Part shown: positions 1 through 57,000 of the stretch, piece after piece | Layout of the letters: each line of letters opens with the position of its first letter | How positions within the stretch are numbered: position 1 is the stretch's first letter | Assembly: GCF_020382885.2 (NCBI RefSeq) | Contig: NC_058506.1 | Location: 11,076,318-11,140,317 of the forward strand | DNA: 64,000 nt | Direction of reading: 5' to 3' | Origin: Scatophagus argus | Lineage: Eukaryota; Chordata; Actinopteri; Scatophagidae | The notes under the pieces: model-generated | What the model was told of the DNA's origin: nothing | The model's database searches: none | What the model saw: the letters and a program-made list of their open reading frames with translations, nothing else | Translations under genes and position numbers: made by a program

Positions 1-19122
<19,122 letters not shown>

Positions 19123-29897: not shown

Positions 29898-36502
<6,605 letters not shown>

Positions 36503-37539
36503 TTCGCAGCGGTTGAAACACTACACAGAGCTGTTAAATAATGGATTTGTCTTACACCGGCATCAGAGATACGCTGGCACCGAATGTGTGGTCTCTACGC
36601 CTCGATAACCGGCCCGTAGCCTGCTCACTCCTCACTTTCTAATGACCTCCTCCAGTCCAAAACACAACGCTTTACGTCTCTCCTGCTTGTCCTGCCGTCC
36701 CTCGAAAGATGTGTCGTAAACGTTGGCCGTTCAAATTTCAATCAAATAAACAGCAGCACTCTGCATAAACTTACAAACCCACCCAAGGTTAATAGAATAA
36801 TAATATTTTTTTTAAAAAACGATAAAGCATCAATCCAAAGCCTGATTGTTCAAACTAAAAACTCTGGATAAATATTGTACTGCAACTACATCAGCGACCG
36901 CGCGGTGGCAGTCAAATATTTGACAGTAGAACACATTTTTTACAGTCAAATATTTTATATGCGTCTATGAGCCATGGACTCTGCTGCCTTTTCATAATAT
37001 TATTATTTTTAATTCACACACTATACAGGCATAAATTTTCATTAAATGGGGTGTGTGGGACGAATCAAACAGCATAGATGAGACAATAATATCAAGACTT
37101 AGATTTGAACACAATAGACTTAACAGTACACTGTCCAGAATAGGAAAATGTAGCCTAATACAGGAAGTATGACTACTGTGTGCTAGAGGAACCAGTAGAG
37201 CAAGTTATCACAGACATGTGAGGAAAAAGAAAAACAACCCATTCAAAACCTCGTAAAGATAAAAGTACACTTCGATCTAAAATATATGGTTCAAATCGAA
37301 TCATATTTTAGTAACTTAGATTTAAATGACTGAAAAGATATGAGTATTTTATGAACTTGACATTACGATCCGCACGCCGTACCAGTTGGGGGCAGTGATG
37401 CGCTAATTCGTTGTTTACTAACCTCAACAGAAGCTCCAAGAAGAAGAAGAAGAAGAAGAAGAAGAAGAAGCAGCAGCAGTCGTCAAGACGAAGCACTTAT
37501 TTATGTATTAAGTATTTAAATAAAGTGTTAATTATTATT
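36503..37539. promoter_or_regulatory. Divergent intergenic region between dlat and the MULE-derived gene
   Basis: The dlat ATG (- strand, 36502) and the MULE-derived gene ATG (+ strand, 37540) face away from each other across 1.04 kb. The dlat-proximal part (about 36500-36720) is GC-richer than the rest, as for a housekeeping promoter. The far end carries (AAG)n(CAG)n directly upstream of the second gene. No TATA box is placed with confidence, and shared promoter activity is inference. Confidence 0.5.
37438..37479 (+). repeat. (AAG)11(CAG)3 trinucleotide repeat
   Basis: Eleven AAG units followed by three CAG units, about 60 bp upstream of the MULE-derived gene ATG and therefore probably in its 5' UTR or promoter. 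The frame through it is open and in phase with the gene, but no upstream ATG exists, so I do not translate it. Confidence 0.88.
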
Positions 37540-40500
37540 ATGCGCAACGCGTGGTGCAAGACCTGCAGTAAAGCGACAGACCAGGACCAGTCGTTGATGA
37601 TTTTGGAGGTGAGGGTTGTGTACACTGTGTGTCTTTGCTCGTCAGCTAACGCAACTAACTGCTTGTAAAAAGTGAATACAATAAACCTCAGAGGGCTGTC
37701 TGTCTTGTTAGCTCATAGCTAAAGTTGGGAAAGCCACTTAGAAAGTTACGATAATGTGGTACAGACTGTGGTACTACTGTAAGCCTCAAACCATGGTTAT
37801 AGTGTTGTGATAGCTCGCTAAGATGTTCGTTACATTCTTTGAAGTCGAGGGGGGGATTGTTTTTACAGAAACTATTGCCGCAACAATACAGCCACACTGT
37901 CTGCAGCTATGAGACGATAGGAGAGAACAATTTCAAGGCAGCCTTAAAACTGAAGCTGTCCAGTGTGAAAGAGGCAAAGAAATGGCTTGAAGACTTCCAG
38001 AGTTCCTCAGGCTTCACATGGCGAACGTCTAAAACGTACCCCAATGTTGGACGCTACAACAAGTATCGAGTAAGTATTAGTCCCACAATCATCCGTCCAC
38101 ACTTATGATTACACCACGTGACCCTCAGTTTAACATTCATTGAGGATGTCCGTAGGAGAGCAGTTATTTTTTAGGTGAAGAAAGAAGACTTTTAAAGGTA
38201 TAGATCAATACGTATCAGTACGTGCTTGTATACCTGTCTTTATGTTTAAAATTGTCTTCATTTGCTATGCCTGACTTTTGCTGTGACGTGACACAGGTGG
38301 ACTACAGGTGCAGGACGATAAAAAAGAACAATTCTTGCCCTGCTACTCTGTTCCTGATCCTGAAAAGGCACCCAGAATGTGGAGAACGGAAGTCGAGGTC
38401 AGTAGTTTGTTTTTGTTTTTGGTTTTTTTGGGGGGGCTTTGTTTTTTAAAGGCTCACAGTCAGTCTTTCGTGGTAACAGATTATTACACCTTTGTGACTT
38501 CACTTTGTGTAAAAAGTCATTGTTGGCAGCCATGCAGGAATTCAAGGAAATAACTTAAAATAAACAAGCTTTCTGTTTTCTCTCAGTATTTTTGCAATAG
38601 GATCACAGCACATGTATTTCTGATCTCCCTTGAATAGTCAGCCAGTTGTCACTGAACAAAGAACAATAATATGTATAACAAATGTCTTAGCAACACCTGC
38701 CTTATTATTTTGGCTGTTATTGTTTGCCTGATTTACTGTTACTCATTTCAGATCCGGAGATCCTCACATGAAGGAGGGACTCTTCTTTCATATCAACTTA
38801 CGCAATGAGCACAACCATCTGGTTTCATCTGCTGAAGTCATGACAAGGAGAGAAGTTTCAGGAGAAACCATTGAAAAGCTGAAAAAGCTATTTGAAAGTG
38901 GTCACTCGCCTTCATCTGCGCTAAAAGTACTTAAGTATGATTTACAAAAGGAGGAACAGGACAACTATGTGTATGCTGCTGCAGATCGTTCTGTCTGTCC
39001 AGATTTGCAGTTTTGTTACAGGTGAGTGACTAATCCAGTCAGTCACAAATGTCTTGTATTTGTTTAATCTGAATTATCCTAAAGCAAGAAAAATGAATCA
39101 ATATATTTAAATAAACCCTTTATAATATCCCAACATATATTACAGTTTCTATGAAATTCAGTTGAAATGTTAAGATTTTAAATACTGGAACATTCTTTTT
39201 TTTTTTTTATTGCAGACTATACTACAAACTGTTCAAAAAAGCGTACAATGCAGCAGCAGGGGAAGAAATATTCAAAGATCTAGAACAAACTCTTGAAGAT
39301 TACAACAAGGAGCAAGGGGATGTCTGTGCCAGGATGTACAAAACCACTGACAATCAGTTGGTGATTGCCATATGCACCCCAATGATGAGGAGGGTCCATG
39401 CCAGGATAAGAGAGAGCAGTGAGATGGTGTTTGTGGACTCCTCAGGGAATTGTGGACGCCTTAATCACCACCTTTTCCTACTCCTTACCCATTCCCCAGC
39501 TGGTGGTTTGCCTTTGGGTGTGTTCATCACCACGTCTGAAACCCAGGCAACCATTTCAACTGCCATGGAGCTGCTACAGACTGTCTTTCCCCCTGACAGG
39601 TTCTTTGGCCACCCGGAGGGGCCTCTTGTTGTCATGACTGATGACTGCCCCGCACTCAGACAGGCACTGCATGAGGCATTCCCCGAAGCCACGTTGGTCC
39701 TTTGCGTGTTTCACCTCCTTCGGGCCATGTGGAGACTACTGTGGAGCAGCTCAAATGAGGTTCCCAAGCAGCACCGGGCCCTCCTCCTAAAGTCCTTCAG
39801 AGATCTGGTGTATGCTTCAACACCAGCGGCACTCACGGAAGTCTACACCAGGCTGATGGAGGACCATATTGCTTCACAGCACCCAAAGTTTGTGCAACAC
39901 CTGCAGGAGGTTTTCAAGCGGCGAGAGGAGTGGGCCATCTGCCTGCAGGCACAACTGCCCACCAGGGGGAACCATATCAACAGCTATGTGGAAAGTGCCA
40001 TGGGGGTGGTAAAAGAGAAGGTTCTCCACCGACTGAAGTCCTACAATGTGACGCAGTTGGTGAACTTTGTCGTCACAAGGATGGAGGCACATTACATCCG
40101 CCGCCTCACAGACATCGCCAACAACCGGCTACAGACTCCTCTTAAGAAAATGTTGAAAATAAAGGATCTCGGGAGACACTCCATTGTGCAGGTACACTAC
40201 TGTGGCATGCAGATGTACAACTGAGACCAGACATTAGCTTAAAATAGGGCTGTTTTAACATTAACACTGTGCTAAGTTAGTTAGCTCTAGCTTACGCTGG
40301 GCCAAAAATATTTGACCGTTATTGTCTTCAATGTAAATCAAGGGTATTAAACTGAATCGTAAAAGAGCCAGTGTGGATGCTGTGTGAATTAGAGATTTGA
40401 TTGGTTGATTCATTTTTGCGTTCCTAATGTATGTCAGAGGTATACTATGCAGGATTTTCCTAAAGAGCAATCTTTACACTCGTACAAAAGTAATGCCTCT

Positions 40501-42129
40501 CTGATGTGAAAGCTGTCAGTGAAACTCTGGTGCGGATCCACTGCTTTGTTCTCGCTAACGCCGCTCCCTCTCTTCATTCACTCTCTAGCTCACTCAACCA
40601 CCGCTGCTCTCTCTCGCTCACTCGTTGAGCCGGGGAGGAGGAGCCGCCTGTGAATGGTGTGTTTACAAACTGCAGCCAACAAATCCTGCATAGTACTCCT
40701 TTAAAAGAAAGGCATGATGGAATGTATTGGGTGAAGATGTAGTTCCACACATTCTAAAATGGACTTTGCCTCTTCATTTTGCAATGCCAATGCTACAGGA
40801 AGATCAAGACAACTACATCGTGACAAACTCATCAAATGCCACAGTGTCCTACCATGTTGACGTGGCCATCGGTTGCTGCACGTGCCCAGCAGGGATTATG
40901 GGTGGACACTGTAAGCATCAAAGTGCGGTTGCCAGGATGTTTGGACATACTGACAGCTTCTCGCATTGCTTGTCACCAGAAACACGGAAGCTGTGCTATC
41001 AGATTGCCACAGGTAAGTTTAGTCTAGTCTTTATCGACGAGACCCTCCCATGGTGTCCCAGTTTCAGTTGTTCCCTAACTAGTATATATATGGACATATA
41101 CAAGTCAGTAACCTTTGAAGCGTGTGGTGTGAATGAGATCAGAAGAAACAAGTTGCTCTTAGCTAAGATTAAACCACTGCATTTTTCCTCTAACAGGGAA
41201 GGACGTTCCAGAAGATGGTTCCGGACGGTTTCCGACAATAGTGCTGAAAAACACATCTCCGTGTGAAAGAGCTGCACAAGTTCCCACAAGTGAAATATAC
41301 TGCTGTCCTGACACAGGTAAGCCAGTGACTCCACAGTCACCAGGACATTGAGACCGTTTCAGATGCTTTGGGTGTTGCTTCTCTCTGTTACTTGTAAGAA
41401 TTAGTCAAGCACTAGTCTGTTTGGAGCTTTGGCTAACTGTTAAACGATTTGGCCCTGCTCCAAACCAAGATGAGTGACTGCAGTGCTACAAAGCACACAG
41501 TTGTAACCCCAAAAGGCTGACTTCTTCTGTCTTTCTCTGGAGACACTGATGCTGATATCATGCAACAGCCAATGGAGTCATCACTGATCCAAACGCAACC
41601 AAATGCATCAGTGGAGACAGATTCCGGTAAAATAAGACTTTTATGTGCAATATTTCTTATGTTTGAGAGGAGAGTATATTGATAAAACTCTCCACAAATC
41701 CTTTTACCAGGTGAAGTGCACCTCAAGGAAAGGCTGAACAGCATATTCCTGGACATCAACAAGAAGCTGGACAACCCTGATTTCACTCATTCCATCACTT
41801 CATTTGTTGAGACTTATGAAAACATCAAAACAGACAGTGCCATGATTTCAGCTCTCTCCTCATTTGGAAAGTCTCTCCAAACAAAGGCCAGAGGGTGCAA
41901 AAGACAGTTGCCCTACCTTCAAACCTCTGCACAAATTGGAGTGCAGCTGCCTGCTGTGTTGAGCAACAAAACGTCTTTGGATGGAGGGAGGGTCCTGAAC
42001 AGTGGACAACCACCGAAGCTGTTAAGAACGGAGCATCTCTATGGAAGAACTGGGACAAACCCAAGTGCTCAGATTCATTCAGTTGTGCACTGTGTGGAGG
42101 AAAGCATGTGCCTTGGGGGGATCAACTAA
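37540..42129 (+). CDS. MULE transposase-derived protein with SWIM zinc finger, ZSWIM1/3-like (817 aa)
   Basis: Nine exons join with consistent phase into one open frame: 37540-37608, 37869-38069, 38297-38397, 38752-39021, 39216-40191, 40799-41012, 41197-41316, 41543-41626, 41711-42129 (TAA). The order of parts is that of Mutator-like transposases. A C-x8-C…H-x-H finger (Cys95, Cys104, His144, His146) resembles WRKY/GCM1/FLYWCH DNA-binding modules. The transposase core has Asp288 (VFVDSSGN), Asp356/357 (VVMTDDCPAL) followed by the CxxH motif at Cys377/His380, and Glu473 (NSYVES). A SWIM finger has CTC…CKH (Cys566, Cys568, Cys577, His579). A roughly 200-residue tail follows. The DDE residues look present. 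Eight introns and an intact frame suggest a domesticated host gene rather than a recent element, and I saw no terminal inverted repeats bounding it. Function unknown; nuclear DNA binding is inference. Start chosen as the only ATG in the first exon. Confidence 0.85.
40443..40695. mobile_element. MITE-like element in an intron of the MULE-derived gene
   Basis: Perfect 15-bp terminal inverted repeats, tactatgcaggattt at 40443-40457 and its reverse complement at 40681-40695, bound a 253-bp segment with no coding capacity. The size and structure fit a miniature inverted-repeat transposable element. I do not see a clear target-site duplication, so the superfamily is unassigned. It lies wholly inside the 607-bp intron 40192-40798. 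Confidence 0.7.
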
Positions 42130-44647
42130 TAAGTCCCCACCCTACCCAGAGGTTGGCCACTGGGCCTCAGTGCACTTGATCGTCCCCTCCCTGTTTGTAC
42201 ATAGTGGTCCATAGTTCCTCATACAGATCTATACACAGCTACAGCTCTCATGTTCGACTGTAAATCCCTGCTATCAATGACCTGTTCCTCTTGTCCGAAA
42301 TGAGTCAGGACACATCCAACATTTGTGTTTTTGTCACAGCTGAATTTACTGTCTGTTGGAAACTGGATACCAACAAACCTACAAAAGTGAGCAACATTGT
42401 CATCACTATTGATAATTGTTTAGTTTGACTTATGTAGTTGAGTGTATTTTAACTGATAACTGATGATGCTGGAAGATCACTGAGTCTGCACAGATTGTCA
42501 GTCTGCTGGACAGTGGCTGCTGTAGCCAATAATTTATTTGGTCATAATCCAGTTATTAAAAATATTATTAAAATTAAATAATGACAAATTTGCTCTCTCT
42601 TCCTATAGCGGCTGTGTCAAACACACTGCTGTCTGACATTTCATGCAGGTCAGTCAAGCAAATATGGCTGGCTTTCACCTTTGAAAAGGCTGTCACAGAT
42701 AAGTAAACCACCGCAAGGTTTAGGATCCCAAATCAGTTTATTGCACAACTTATAGTACCAGTAACAATCACTGCCTCATTTTGGCATGTCAAAATGTTAT
42801 TCTGACTAGTTAAAATGTGGATTAAAGAAATCTGTGATTTACAGATATCTTTAATTATGGATATCAGTAAATATCTGGCGAGTGTGCCGACCACCATCTA
42901 CTGTAGGGTCAGAAGGTCTGTCAGGTAAAATAAAAACTGGAACAATGACATCTTTTTTCAAAACTATTTATTTCAAAATGCCTGTCTAACATTCAATAAA
43001 TCCTTTTTTGTTTTTTAAATCAGACTGTATCCATATTTTGTAAAACCTAAAACATGCTAAATAACCATTTCACCAGAAAATTGTATATTTTACAGTACAG
43101 GCAGTTATGGCATTCAAGTGGGTCATATTTAAAATTAGACAGATGCTTATTTCTGTTGGCGTGTTAGTGAAGGCAAGCACACTGAGCCCAAACGGGCACA
43201 AAAGAGGGAAAATGTGTGTGAAAAGTTTCAGTCTGTTGCTATACAGGTCTCCTAACACTGAGCACTTTCCTGCATCAAGTAAAACAGCTCTAACCACTGT
43301 TCTGCTGGCATTTACACACACACACACACACACACATACACAGTCTCTCTCTCACACACATACTAACACACAATAAATAGTGGGATGGCCCATTGTTCAA
43401 GGACAAAAGTCTCCTTTAAATCTCACATCCACAGCATTCTGCTAACAGGAGCAGATGTGTTGTCAGCTCACAAGAATCTCTCTCTCTCTATTGAAACAAA
43501 TAAGAGACATAAACATCCAAAACATTTAAGGATATGGTGAAAATATTTAACACACATTTACAAAACAGTTTCCTAAAATAAGTAAAAAAAAAAAAAAACA
43601 GAAACGGTGCCGTTCATCTGCATTTCAATCCATTGACAGCAGTTCAGTTTGCACTCATGCTGGTGTGCTACATGCTGGCATTTAAAGCCACATCTGCATT
43701 TGGGGCCTACTTAGTCAAACTGATTAGTCTGAAACACATTCAGTTTTGTTTCTTTTTAGCAACACTATTCTTGTTTGGACATCTCCAGATCAGCCTCCTA
43801 TTTTCTTATTTTTCTTGTTTTGTTTTGTTTTTTTTTTCACCTAGCTGGTATCGGGTCAGCGTACTGGTCAGCAGTAGGTCAGAACGTAGATGAACTTTGT
43901 GCAGCACTAACACAAAATGAAGCTTGTACAAAGCTTATCTGACATTTTCTATCCTTGAAAAATTTATATTAGGAAAGTGGTGCTTTTTTCCATAACCCAG
44001 ACATTTCTTTCTGTCTCGTTATGATTGATAATACTGTATATTCACTTCACATTCACAAAGAAGGCTGCTGATATTTATGTACCTGCGGTCAAGAACAGTG
44101 GATATCTGACATGCAATCTCATAGTATTTGTTTAAAACACTATGTCACTGCACACTGAAGGAAAAGTGATGCATAACATTTAAAAACGACATACTTTTAG
44201 TAAGCTGCATGTGAAATAACTACATAAGTGCGGTTTTAGAGACACTTCACTTGACAATAATGTCACTTTTGTGTCCAGTTTTGATACCACAGTTACAGCC
44301 TGGCAATAATAAACACATGATGGGAACAGCTTTCATTTGTAAGGCACTGAGTTTTAGGATATTCTATGTATCAGTTACAGATTTACACCAGCTGATAAAC
44401 CCAAATCTCTTACTGACAATTTTTCCAGTTATTCCCCAACAGTTTGAATCTCAAAAAGCGTCTGCTTGTGCCTCCTTTGGGTGCCTCGGTTGTCTCTGTG
44501 ATCCTCTGGGATCAAAACAACCGGGAGCAAAAACAAGAAGTGCTTCCTCAGCTTGAACCTACAGTGGCCTAAGACAGGAAAGAGAATGCAGTCCTTGAGT
44601 AGTGAGAGTCAGGAAAATAAAGAGACAGACACAGAATCAACATGTTG
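42130..44647. other. Tail-to-tail intergenic region between the MULE-derived gene and dixdc1
   Basis: Presumed 3' UTRs of both genes. Candidate poly(A) signals are ATTAAA at 42555-42560 (+, MULE-derived gene) and AATAAA on the - strand (tttatt on + at 42966-42971, about 1.7 kb past the dixdc1 stop). (CA)n is at 43315-43336. A segment at 42609-42647 is flanked by tatag and gtcagt but cannot be joined to a coding frame. Confidence 0.5.
43315..43336 (+). repeat. (CA)n microsatellite
   Basis: About 11 perfect units, probably in the 3' UTR of dixdc1 (as (TG)n on the transcript). Confidence 0.85.
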
Positions 44648-50600: not shown

Positions 50601-52828
50601 ACTGAACACACGTGAACAATGTGTATTTGTTATGATACAAACATGTAACATTTCGGGATCAAATAAAGTTTGTGACCACAATACAGGGTCAGCAACCAGA
50701 AAATTTTAGGAACACTTGCTCTAAAAATGACAATGAGAAAACACAGACTTCTCTGTGGTTTACCTCCTGCGGATATGTGTGGCATGCGTATGTGTCTGGA
50801 GGAAATGAACTGCAAGACTTTGTCCACATTCTTCCTGCTTTCCTCTTTGTTTTGTGGAGCTACATACACTCCCTCCAGCACTTCTCCAGCTGCCAATTTC
50901 AATGAGATTTCAGAGAGAGAGTGAGAGAGAGAGAGATAGAGAGAAAAAGATTTATTTTTTTTTTAATCAATGGCGCAGCTACATCTTAGGCGTTTTCATC
51001 AGTGCCATATGAACAATAATACAGTACAGTTCAGGTACAATTGAAACCATATTGCAGTTTAATATTTTATAGGCGTACTATGTTATTTCCCAATAACGCT
51101 GTTAATAACATAATAATAACAATTTTATAGTTGATATCACTGCACGGGATTCAGGTTAATGTTTTTTTTATCATGAATGGTGCAACAAGATAATAAAAGA
51201 AATTCTTGTGGAATTATCAACTAATACTGCAACACTGCCAAAAGCTGAAGAGTATGAACAATAACCTCTCTTTAAACAGCGTATTTAGAGTCAACTGTGA
51301 TGGATAACTGAGAGAAGGGATATTCTGAACAAAGAGTCTCCACTGTTCACACTTTCATCTCCAGTTCATTCTCACAATGAATTATTAAAGCAGATTACCA
51401 CAGACTGTCAACCTTAAAGAGCCTGACGTGCACTGACAAGTACACATATTGTGCTATCTTTCAGAATCCTACAGACTAAAAAAAGCGAATATGTGAGAAA
51501 TTTTCATTTATACATAATTTTTTGAATGAAAATACTTAATAATCCATATGAAGTTTCACATCTTGCTTCAGGTGATTTATTGTCAAAGCTTTAAAAAAAA
51601 TGTGAAGCTAAAATGTCACTTCTCTTTATTATAGAAGTCACTTTCAAGGTAAAGCATCTCAGACTAGTCTTGCTGAAAGATGGAATGTAAGTAATGGCTT
51701 GTGGCTCTGCAAGCTGTGTAAGTACAAACTGATAATAAATACAAAATGTTTTAATTGTATGCACCCATATACAAACTAATTAATTTATTTTGATCTTCTG
51801 ACACCTGGACTTATTTGTCCTCCAGTATTAGTACACCATATGACCCATCTGTGTGTGTGTGTAACTGTGCATATGTGTATTTACCAACTATCTCTATTAG
51901 CTGTGTGAGAACCACCCCATCCTGTAGATCATGCCTGAGGTCTGTAATAGGCTTCAGGCCTGGTTTCCTCTTCAGCTGAGAGTTCACCCAGGAAATATAC
52001 GCTGCCAGTTGCTGCTGCAATCCATCAATCAGATACACACAAATCCACCAAATCACAGAAAAACACATGCACAAACACACAGCTTAGATTGGGGGCCAAA
52101 GAAGGCTGAGACCATGGCATAACAAATGAGTTTCTTTGTTTATTATGTTGGGACAGGAGGGGGGGGGGTCAGTCTATTGTCCCACTGCCTATTAAATGTT
52201 GCTTTTATTGTGAAGGCCAATCGTATTATTCTGTGTTCTGAGCAGAGCTGCATGGTTCAGCACTCTTCCCCTCTATTTCGCACGGTTAACTTTACCTCAC
52301 CTTTACCGATCTCGTTCAGTCACGTGACAACCCGTCGCCCTGGTTACATTACAAAGAACGAACCCCGTTTTGAACACAAGAGAGAACATTTCACTTACAG
52401 AAAACCTCACCGTGGTCTTTGGTGTGTCAATTACCTTTTACATATCACTCTAAAGTTAACGTTACTCTTTTTAATTTTAAGCCAATTACAAGCTAACCTA
52501 GCGTTAATGCCAGCTAACTAACGTTACAGAGCGAGAATATGTTTTTTGCTCCTAATTAAGTTAACGTTACATTATCGTCAACACTTGCTTAGTTGGACAA
52601 ACTGTGGAAAGTCGTTATTATTACCTAACGGTAAAGTTGTGGCACCTTACTGTTATGCTAGTGAAACTGTTAGATGTTTAGCAAATTTAACTAGCATCCG
52701 CATGCAAAATTATAGCTAACCTAACTTAACAGACACTAACGTTAGTAACGCTAGATAATCGTTACCTCATTTAAGCCACCATGGAGGACCTCATCCAGCA
52801 AACTTCCTCTAGAAAGTGAGGCGATCAT
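44648..52828 (-). CDS. dixdc1: DIX domain-containing protein 1 (Ccd1), complete, 631 aa
   Basis: Positive regulator of Wnt/beta-catenin signalling that binds Dishevelled and Axin through its DIX domain and actin through its CH domain. Twenty exons, 5' to 3': 52828-52766, 52014-51885, 50889-50764, 50519-50288, 50069-49974, 48358-48246, 48134-48031, 47814-47731, 47445-47392, 47259-47209, 47091-46987, 46873-46820, 46686-46615, 46352-46311, 46142-46077, 45952-45803, 45453-45390, 45299-45203, 44952-44844, 44731-44648. All phases agree. The calponin-homology domain covers about residues 22-125 ([11 protein letters not shown]). A Gln/Glu/Lys-rich coiled coil lies at about 317-442. The DIX domain covers about 550-628 ([43 protein letters not shown]). 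The closest match is human DIXDC1 (683 aa); the middle linker is shorter here. MIASLSRG as the start matches the long CH-containing isoform. Confidence 0.97.
45144..45195 (+). repeat. (CA)n followed by (CAGA)n microsatellite
   Basis: Compound simple repeat 8 bp downstream (in transcript sense) of the DIX-domain exon 45299-45203, inside the next intron. It lies close to the splice donor on the - strand. Confidence 0.85.
47092..47208 (-). other. GC-AG intron in dixdc1
   Basis: The exon 47259-47209 ends …GTCAAG and the intron begins gcaaga instead of gt, with a normal acceptor (gtacag) before exon 47091-46987. Phase and protein alignment (NLQGVK | DAQQQRL, as in DIXDC1) force this junction. GC-AG introns are a known minority class spliced by the major spliceosome. 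Confidence 0.8.
47641..47671 (+). repeat. (GA)n microsatellite
   Basis: About 15 units in a dixdc1 intron, read as (TC)n on the transcript. It may act as an extended pyrimidine tract but lies about 195 bp from the next acceptor. Confidence 0.88.
47871..47895 (+). repeat. (CA)n microsatellite
   Basis: About 12 units in the dixdc1 intron between exons 48134-48031 and 47814-47731; read as (GT)n on the transcript. Confidence 0.85.
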
Positions 52829-53690
52829 CTTTTAACTCGAAAACCCATTTAAGCTAGCTGACTAGCTTCATTGCCTCTGACACGACTCTTGAAACAACGG
52901 GCAGACCTCGTTACTAACTACCGCTGTACAGCAAACGCCAACAAACCCAGACAATTGAGTGGCTGGATGAGACGGCTACCGTTACCCTGGCAGGACAGCG
53001 GTGTGAAGTAACCACGACTGACCTATACGATTTCCGGTTACAGGTTTCAGAATAAAACTGCTCAAACGAACTGAAACTGTACTAACAAACACTTCCGGAA
53101 TTCAAACCGTGACGGCTCAGTTTCTCTTTGCCTAAAAATGCTTGTGGTAAACAAGTATATGCCACATAAAGGGATTAAAAGATTTAGTTTTATAAAGGCA
53201 GCATAAATGCATAAGTGAAAACCAGCCCCTCAGAATGCCTTTGGTTCCTAAAACTAACCTTTGCTATCTCATTTTCTGGCATTAAATGAAGGCTTAAGGT
53301 CCAATCCACTAACATTATCATCTTCTTGTATATTTCAATACAAGAATTAACACCAGACAGCAGCTAAACCCCATTTTGTAATGTTTTATGGTAATGTGGC
53401 TGAATTGATGATGATGATCTCAACACTTAAATGTCACTGTATTATGATCTCATTGTATATCGTATTACTGTACTTCAACATATTCATCGTTAAACATTTT
53501 TACATATTAAAGAGGTACTGAATTCTACTGTTAAATGGACAGTTTGACCTATAGATCAATAAGTATATAAAGATTTTTTTTTTAATCCCTACTCTTACAG
53601 TCCCCTTTCCAGCCTCCATTAATGTCAGCTTGCAGGTAAACACACTTTAAGGTTGGAGAATATGAAAAAAAAAAACTACATACATAAATA

Positions 53691-54088: not shown

Positions 54089-57000
54089 TTAACATACAAG
54101 CACCCCATCAGCCACAAAGATCAGATCCACTTCTGCTTCCAGCTCCGTTTCTAAACAGAATAGACACAGGACTGGTATATTTTAAGTATATTATCAGTGA
54201 CTTTTTATTCTGGGCCTCTAGCTGAGCATGGGGTGCTTGTAGGACTAAAGGTGTTTGAGTTACTAAGATATGGAATTTGCGCTTGAGGGTCTCCCTCAGG
54301 AAGGGGACTGTGATGCCTGGACTGAGGCTGGCATTTCCACGACACTGTGATCCAGGATGTGACCTTCAAACAGTGGAAGATAGAGTAAGCTATCTGAGAA
54401 GCTACTTTTCTGACAAAAGAGCAGAAAATAAGCAATTGACAGAAAAATTTTCAGCAACAGTGGCGAAAATTGGTTAATCATTAGGTCATTTTTAAGAGCA
54501 AAAAGGACAAAAATTCTGATTAGTAACTGCTAACATGCTGAACTCATATGGTCAATATTGTAAACATTATCTGTTTAATATGTAAACACCTTAACACTGC
54601 TACTGTGAACATGTTAGTCTCACTGTTAGTGACTGTGGCTGTACACTCTTTGTCTTGTTCCCACAAGATGGCAAACAGTTTTTTTATTTACCAGTTCGTA
54701 AAGTGACCTGGTGGAGTATGTTGAGGTAAGGGAGGTAAATATTGCTGGGTCCTGGAGGAGAGAAACTTATTTTTCCATCATCCAGTACCACTCTCTGACC
54801 AAAGACATGCAGCTGAAAGAAATGGAGAAAGAACACTAAATATTAAATTTTGCTTGCTTTTTGAATACTCACTGGTACCTGTATGTATATATTTGAGTGT
54901 GTATGCATATGTTCGTGTGTTTGTGTACCTGCTTTTCAAGGAGCTTTTGTGTCAGTTTTAGAAGATTAATGTTTTGCACTCCTCGCAGGTCACTGAGTAA
55001 CAAAGTGGCCCGAGCCAGAGTCAGACTAGACCGTGGTGGCATGCATGTCCATCCTGACAGCAGACTCACAGCTTCCTAAACACATCCATACAAAAATGGC
55101 ACACAGCAGAACTGTGATAATCCCAAAAAGTTGCACATTTCACACACCAACTTTGTATAAAAGTATTGAGATCAAGATTGCACATAAGCAGAACAGCAGC
55201 TGACAGAACATCTGGAGAAGGCAAGGTGGCAGGGCTAGTGGCGCAATGGATAACGCGTCTGACTACGGATCAGAAGATTCTAGGTTCGACTCCTGGCTAG
55301 CTCGGTTTAAGCTTTAACTTGAAAACACACTTGTTTCTTCTTTACAAAACTCCTTCCCCACATACTGTCGATCAAAGTACAGTCACAACAGGAAAGAGCC
55401 AAACAAGTTGTAAATGGCCTGTCATCATGTACATCAAGTCAGTTTTGTTTCTGTTTTCTTTCAGTGTTACTTGCTAAAAATCTCGCTTTGAAAAGCAACT
55501 TTTTCTCTGAAGAATAACAATTCACAGCAGCACAATATAAAACTTCCAAGGAACTAGACTGTCTTTTGTAACGTATTATTTAGGAAACCTATGCAAACAA
55601 AACAGCAGTATGTTTGATATTCAAAGCGCCCAATATGCTCTCACAACAAGGTGACACTTGCGACCACGCAGCACTGCTGCTGTAGCCGTGATTGTATAGT
55701 GGTTAGTACTCTGCGTTGTGGCCGCAGCAACCCCGGTTGCAACCCCGGAATCCGGGTCACGGCAGCAGTGATGAACAGTGTGTGTTTTGTGTTTGATGGT
55801 TTCACCTATTCTGGCCTTCACTTCAATTTATATATTTTCAAAGTGGACACCTCAAGCAACTGTTCCCACCAAAAGCCAAATACTTTCCGATTCTATCAGT
55901 CCTTTAACCAGTATTCTCCTCAATGGTCTACAAAATATAATGCCACAATGGGCCGCTTTGAATGTGCTGACAACCAAGCCATTCCCAGAGGTTCCATCAT
56001 GTAGGGCTAGTGGCGCAATGGATAACGCGTCTGACTACGGCTCAGAAGATTCTAGGTTCGACTCCTGGCTAGCTCGGTTTAAGCTTTAACTTGAAAAAAC
56101 ACTTTTTTCTTCTTTACAAAAATCTTGCTTTGAAAAGCAACTTTTTCTCTGAAGAATATTCACAGCAGCACAATATAAAACTTCCAAGGAACTAGACTGT
56201 CTTTTGTAACATATTATTTAGGAAACCTATGCAAACAAAACAGCAGTATGTTTGATATTCAAAGCGCCCAATATGCTCTCACAACAAGGTGACACTTGCG
56301 ACCACTCAGCACTGCTGCTGTAGCCGTGATTGTATAGTGGTTAGTACTCTGCGTTGTGGCTGCAGCAACCCCGGTTCAAATCCGGGTCATGGCAGCAGTG
56401 ATAAACGTTTTGTGTTTGGTTTCACCTATTCTGGCCTTCACTTCAATTTACATATTTTCAAATACTTTCCGATTCTATCAGTCCTTCAAACAGTGTTCTC
56501 CTCAATGGTCTGCAAAGTATAATGCCACAATGGGTCGCATGGCATGTGGTGACATCCAAGCCATTCCCAGAGGTTACATCATGTGGGGCTAGTGGCGCAA
56601 TGGATAACGCGTCTGACTACGGATCAGAAGATTCTAGGTTCGACTCCTGGCTAGCTCGGTTTAAGTTTTAGTTGGGAAACACACTCCTTTCTCCTTCCCC
56701 ATATATTGTCAAAGTACAGTCACAACTGCAAAGATGCTACACTTGTTTCTTCTTTACAAAACTCCTTTCCCACATACTGTCAATCAAAGTACATTTGGAA
56801 ACAGCCAAACAAGCTGTAAATGGCTGTCAAAATGTACATCAAGTCAATTTCGTTTCTGTTTCTGTTCAGCGTTACTTGCTAAAAATCTTGCTTTGAAAAG
56901 CAAATAAAAGAAGATACCATTAAGGACAAGAATGTTCAGAGACAGTTGTGTTTTTGCTTTTATTTTTTTTCCAGCAATGTTAAAGCCATTACCTTTTGTT

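Follow-up and report, generated by a model that had tools for sequence, protein, structure and literature searches.

A single-copy fish gene with a complete Mutator-type active site, probably domesticated from a transposase

We have analysed a stretch of 64,000 nucleotides from the fish Scatophagus argus (contig NC_058506.1, positions 11,076,318 to 11,140,317; hereafter "the window"), where a gene of nine exons with the motifs of a Mutator-like element (MULE) transposase is located on the forward strand at positions 37540..42129. The exon model and its motifs are confirmed by our analysis; our reading of the gene, to which we assign a probability of roughly 0.82, is that it is a single-copy host gene that has been domesticated from a MULE transposase. 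We favour domestication because no second copy has been found, no convincing element ends flank the gene, its 5' end is not depleted of CpG, and its reading frame has outlived an old repeat. The initial annotation of the window had proposed the same origin, and the proposal is supported by these four observations, along with the completeness of the catalytic set.

Exon model and transposase core

The nine exons splice to 2454 nt, i.e. 817 codons and a stop codon in a single frame, and all eight introns are bounded by GT-AG, which bears out the claim of the initial annotation that the frame is kept throughout. The exons, together with a repeat in intron 5 and a CpG-rich stretch at the gene start, are as follows:

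37540..37608, + strand: exon 1, codons 1-23, with the start codon; donor at the 99.6th percentile of GT sites, CpG peak at 37251-37550
37869..38069, + strand: exon 2; one of six frames open
38297..38397, + strand: exon 3, with the C95-x8-C104 half of a putative N-terminal zinc finger; splicing, frame and motif, with no Pfam zinc-finger match
38752..39021, + strand: exon 4, with the H144-x-H146 half of the putative finger; motif, one of six frames open
39216..40191, + strand: exon 5, MULE/IS256-type core with D288, D356, C377-x2-H380, W453 and E473; Pfam MULE, NCBIfam IS256 and alignment
40799..41012, + strand: exon 6, SWIM-like zinc finger C566-x-C568...C577-x-H579; Pfam SWIM at 19.1 bits on a 50-residue fragment
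41197..41316, + strand: exon 7; placed by splice sites and frame alone
41543..41626, + strand: exon 8; placed likewise, with a GAG acceptor
41711..42129, + strand: exon 9, C-terminal tail and stop codon; one stop (the terminal one) against four to eight in the other frames
40438..40700, no strand assigned: repeat resembling a miniature inverted-repeat transposable element (MITE), with inverted ends of 20 nt; it is located in intron 5 and serves as an approximate neutral clock; repeat and genome searches
37251..37550, no strand assigned: CpG-undepleted stretch across the start codon, probable promoter; observed/expected ratio 1.47, 13 CpG

A reading frame that is open by chance has been ruled out, both by the lengths of frames in random sequence and by the stops of the alternative frames. 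The frame of exon 5 extends over 352 codons from stop to stop; in 200 random sequences, each of 64 kb and matched to exon 5 in composition, the longest chance frame was 330 codons. The model frame has its only stop at the end of the final exon, and in exon 5 the five alternative frames contain 9-15 stops. The model frame alone is open in exons 2, 4, 5, 6 and 9, the terminal stop aside.

The residues of the 817-residue protein have been positioned by motif search and by counting by eye on the translation. The motifs that had been listed in the initial annotation, i.e. the putative N-terminal finger (C95-x8-C104...H144-x-H146), D288, D356 with the adjoining D357, the CxxH motif (C377-x2-H380), E473 and the CxC...CxH motif of the SWIM-like finger, are all found in the order of a transposase, the acidic residues at the positions named there.

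The core exceeds the cut-offs of two Pfam transposase models: MULE (PF10551) at residues 295-382 (E 4e-7, 30.8 bits, cut-off 27.6) and Transposase_mut (PF00872) at residues 351-447 (E 8e-5, 22.1 bits, cut-off 21). The model ZSWIM1-3_RNaseH-like (PF21056) matches residues 246-374 under its cut-off (E 1e-4, 22.4 bits on the protein, cut-off 27.2), and ISL3 matches weakly. The top match in NCBIfam is IS256 (E 1.7e-7), at 30.5 bits far under the equivalog cut-off of 150; a tblastn search with the protein hits 47 plasmid records, all weakly (best E 0.01), with an IS256 annotation on 15 of the 20 matches listed.

The alignment of the catalytic residues with the Mutator superfamily, which the initial annotation had suggested, has been made with four IS256 transposases from these plasmid matches, 19-22% identical to the protein: D288, D356, C377, H380 and E473 are all located in invariant columns. 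A profile built from these four transposases matches the solved Mutator-family transposase 6xg8; the gene's protein alone matched none of the solved structures of the Protein Data Bank. In Muta1 of Aedes aegypti, an extract of PMC5225508 describes D214, D283, H307, W401 and E419 as each being required for transposition. The corresponding residues occur in the same order in the fish protein, with spacings (gene/Muta1) of 68/69 for D-D, 24/24 for D-H, 73/94 for H-W and 20/18 for W-E, W453 having been paired with W401 by eye, without alignment; three of the four spacings thus differ by at most two residues, and H-W differs by 21. Judging by these matches, the core belongs to the transposases of the Mutator superfamily (MULE/IS256 type) and has a complete catalytic set.

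Copy number, flanks and survival of the frame

Our search for relatives of the gene has covered its own genome, 570.7 Mb in 48 contigs. PF10551 has a single match there, which is this gene (three candidates, all scored), and so does PF21056 (one candidate), at 26.2 bits, or 27.7 bits with the neighbours in frame, against the cut-off of 27.2. The full protein has ten matches (all ten candidates scored), which are its nine own exons and one match by chance (E 1.1). The DNA of positions 36600-43500 finds itself and 43 further matches, 39 to the intron-5 repeat and four to an AC repeat; this search scored 40 of 315 candidates and, taken alone, leaves room for another weak copy. Overall, no second copy or paralogue has been found in the genome by domain, protein or DNA searches, and an active transposon family is rejected, as neither PF10551 nor the DNA or protein search has revealed further copies. 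No relatives have been found in the collections viral_contigs and genome_contigs, which are not known to hold fish genomes.

The comparison of the flanks (36601-37540 and 42130-43500) has revealed no convincing terminal inverted repeats or target duplication of 8-11 bp. Inverted matches without mismatch reach at most 13 nt, in a single A+T-only 13-mer within an 18-nt pair, which we judge to be low-complexity; in direct order the flanks have one 10-mer and seven 9-mers in common, about five 9-mers being estimated by chance. The genome search for copies with inverted ends that had been proposed in the initial annotation has thus ended with a single copy and no convincing ends.

The MITE-like repeat of intron 5, whose inverted ends lie around TACTATGCAGGATTT, is matched in part at 39 or more other places of the genome, with 71-94% identity. 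When the window copy is compared with 18 others, its terminal branch measures 0.064 and it lies 0.095 from their consensus. In a neutral simulation that left out insertions and deletions, the full coding sequence remained open in 47, 22, 1 and 0 of 2000 runs at divergences K of 0.05, 0.064, 0.095 and 0.15, respectively. The simulation supports purifying selection on the coding frame, as a model result that is no substitute for dN/dS; a frame that has outlived the insertion of an old repeat into its own intron favours a host gene.

The start of the gene coincides with the highest CpG observed/expected ratio of 1274 overlapping 300-base segments of the window (37251-37550). Among the 26 segments with a ratio of at least 0.9, four are located at the gene start, eight at the presumed 5' end of a dlat-like gene, 11 upstream of an exon with a CH domain and three elsewhere, so that the 5' end of the gene resembles those of its neighbours. 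In vertebrates, undepleted CpG indicates DNA that is unmethylated in the germ line, usually at promoters. The peak could be one region common to the gene and the presumed dlat 5' end, but the ratio dips between the two, to 0.59 and 0.67 within 36801-37400. Eleven AAG units are located at 37438-37470, within an open frame 5' of the start codon.

Alternative readings and possible function

Several observations weigh against domestication or against the strength of its support. An intact active site is equally expected of a transposase that has recently arrived. Neither putative zinc-binding module is securely assigned to a family: the N-terminal one, which would correspond to the WRKY-GCM1/FLYWCH-type finger of MULE transposases, matched no zinc-finger family in the Pfam scan, and the SWIM-like one reaches 19.1 bits on a fragment, just under the PF04434 cut-off of 19.6. 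A genome search for the SWIM family is a poor control in this respect, with seven weak matches (best E 0.07) that do not include this gene, five of them counted above the cut-off and two of these only with their neighbours in frame. The A+T-only inverted pair that flanks the gene (36798-36815 and 42553-42570, 18 nt, 89%) may possibly represent its element ends, now decayed. The clock draws on 157 sites of the alignment and 18 copies chosen for their likeness to the window copy, a choice that pulls the divergence estimates down; several of these copies align partially and extend into unrelated flank. Conversely, if the consensus is not the true source of the window copy, the estimates are too high and the repeat was inserted more recently than they suggest. 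Finally, exon 5 alone remained open in 332 of 2000 simulated runs at K 0.064 and in 137 at K 0.095, which is not decisive.

With these points in view, it is improbable, in our estimate, that the gene is a lone MULE copy of recent arrival, perhaps by horizontal transfer, without selection by the host. Such a copy would account for the complete catalytic set, and animal MULEs in which no inverted repeats have been detected do exist (PMC6446971, in extract), but it is at odds with the lack of any second copy or fragment in the genome searches, with the old, diverged repeat inside intron 5, with the promoter-like CpG mark and with the eight introns. The last argument, on which the initial annotation had relied, is weaker than it had supposed: the introns are present, but mosquito MULEs have introns too, with two predicted exons in Muta1 and three in Muta5, according to extracts of the literature. 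Less probable still, to the point of being very hard to sustain, is a decaying pseudogene that is open by chance, since its 817 codons carry no frame damage and neutral survival was simulated in 22 or 1 of 2000 runs at the two measured divergences. A better case, though still an unlikely one, can be made for a fish member of the ZSWIM1/ZSWIM3 lineage, in place of a separate domestication: the ZSWIM1-3_RNaseH-like model matches the core and, in the genome, matches nothing else, at scores on either side of its cut-off. The gene nevertheless scores higher with the MULE model of Pfam and the IS256 model of NCBIfam, the ZSWIM1-3 model reaches its cut-off with neither the protein nor the core (23.6 bits for the latter), and no other ZSWIM1/3 model (helical or N-terminal) has appeared in the general Pfam scans. 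Human ZSWIM1 and ZSWIM3 have few coding exons and a different gene order.

A different kind of alternative is that the core gene is real and the exon model partly wrong, with exon 1 or exons 7-9 belonging elsewhere, which we consider doubtful but somewhat more plausible than the alternatives above. The weak points of the model are exons 1, 3, 7 and 8, which are short and open in further frames too, three of the eight acceptors (37869, 38297 and 40799), which have ordinary or poor pyrimidine tracts, and the GAG acceptor of exon 8; codon-usage scoring, trained on 963 codons of other genes of the window, on 325 codons of exon 5 or on both, failed to tell the frames apart and its result has been left unused. 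On the other side, the junctions preserve the frame, the CpG peak is located at exon 1, and all eight donors rank in the top 8% of the GT sites of the window, as scored with general donor-site frequencies.

For a domesticated gene, the sequence suggests the following mode of action. The gene would be transcribed away from dlat; its protein would be nuclear and would bind specific DNA through the N-terminal Cys2-His2 module and the SWIM-like finger, while the RNase H-like core would pair two DNA sites or two copies of the protein. As the gene retains the residues without which, by mutation tests, a MULE does not function, metal-dependent cutting of DNA may be retained too; as no mobile partner has been found in the genome, the targets would be host sites, and the role of the protein would be to regulate transcription or chromatin, or to serve as a programmed nuclease. 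A regulator that only binds DNA would be the likelier outcome, and the retention of cutting is a tentative proposal. It is a rather speculative extension that a vertebrate possesses, as an ordinary gene, one catalytically competent Mutator-type enzyme, domesticated separately from ZSWIM1/3, that would cut or join the animal's own DNA at defined positions, in the manner of RAG1.

Neighbouring genes and known Mutator-derived systems

The dlat-like gene, with lipoyl and acyltransferase domains, is located on the minus strand. Its presumed first exon (36197-36520) has been placed by following the open frame and gave no match to any family; if this exon is right, the two genes are divergent, with their 5' ends about 1 kb apart. 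The stretch 52201-53200, just 5' of the CH-domain exon, is also CpG-undepleted and is perhaps the promoter of dixdc1; a scan of two reading frames for a DIX domain gave no match, and both gene names rest on the domains mentioned (CH for dixdc1) and on the initial annotation. Elsewhere in the window, an exon with a Pecanex C-terminal domain is located at 16253-16525 (+ strand), and three tRNA-Arg(ACG) genes and one tRNA-His(GTG) gene are arranged in repeated units at 55232-56658; a second His-like copy, recognised by eye at about 55685-55760, contains an insertion, and ARAGORN does not call it.

Host genes derived from MULEs are known from plants and, by the name of the Pfam family, from vertebrates as ZSWIM1/3. 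No description of the present gene was found among the papers listed in the literature searched, which mostly excludes subscription journals; one may exist elsewhere. The superfamily review PMC6446971, in extract, treats the real absence of MULEs from vertebrates as an open question and deems earlier vertebrate reports misidentified; a fish gene that is single-copy and has the full active site of a MULE would indicate that these elements have at some time entered vertebrates.

Outside host genes, the closest parallels are found in transposases. Those of IS256 (solved as 6xg8, 6xgw and 6xgx) have the D, D, C-x2-H and E columns in common with the gene in the four sequences aligned, but they are bacterial and, in the four sequences taken, 399-424 residues long. 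Muta1, an active MULE, resembles the gene in the order and most of the spacing of its catalytic residues and differs in being multi-copy, in its inverted repeats, in its two predicted exons and in the longer H-W distance.

Among the host genes, ZSWIM1 and ZSWIM3 are, like the fish gene, vertebrate genes with a Mutator core of the RNase H-like type; their SWIM finger, known by the name of the family, would correspond to the SWIM-like finger of the fish gene. The fish gene differs in that its PF21056 match is at the edge of the cut-off, it fits the MULE/IS256 models better and it has nine exons. Rare damaging variants of human ZSWIM3 and rare variants of ZSWIM1 are associated with longer telomeres, according to an extract of PMC11387196, a lead that suggests that MULE-derived genes may have roles at the level of the chromosome. 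The plant proteins FHY3/FAR1 and MUSTANG combine an N-terminal zinc-binding module, a MULE core and a SWIM finger, with no element ends (PMC3435246, in extract), an arrangement to which the fish gene corresponds in its core and, putatively, in its two fingers; the plant and fish genes are presumably independent captures in different kingdoms. Most MUSTANG proteins, according to the same extract, have no intact Asp-Asp-Glu (DDE) triad, whereas the fish gene keeps it and is thus one place where retained catalysis can be tested directly. Most likely, the gene is a further MULE-derived host gene, comparable to FHY3/FAR1, MUSTANG and ZSWIM1/3 and distinguished by its complete active site.

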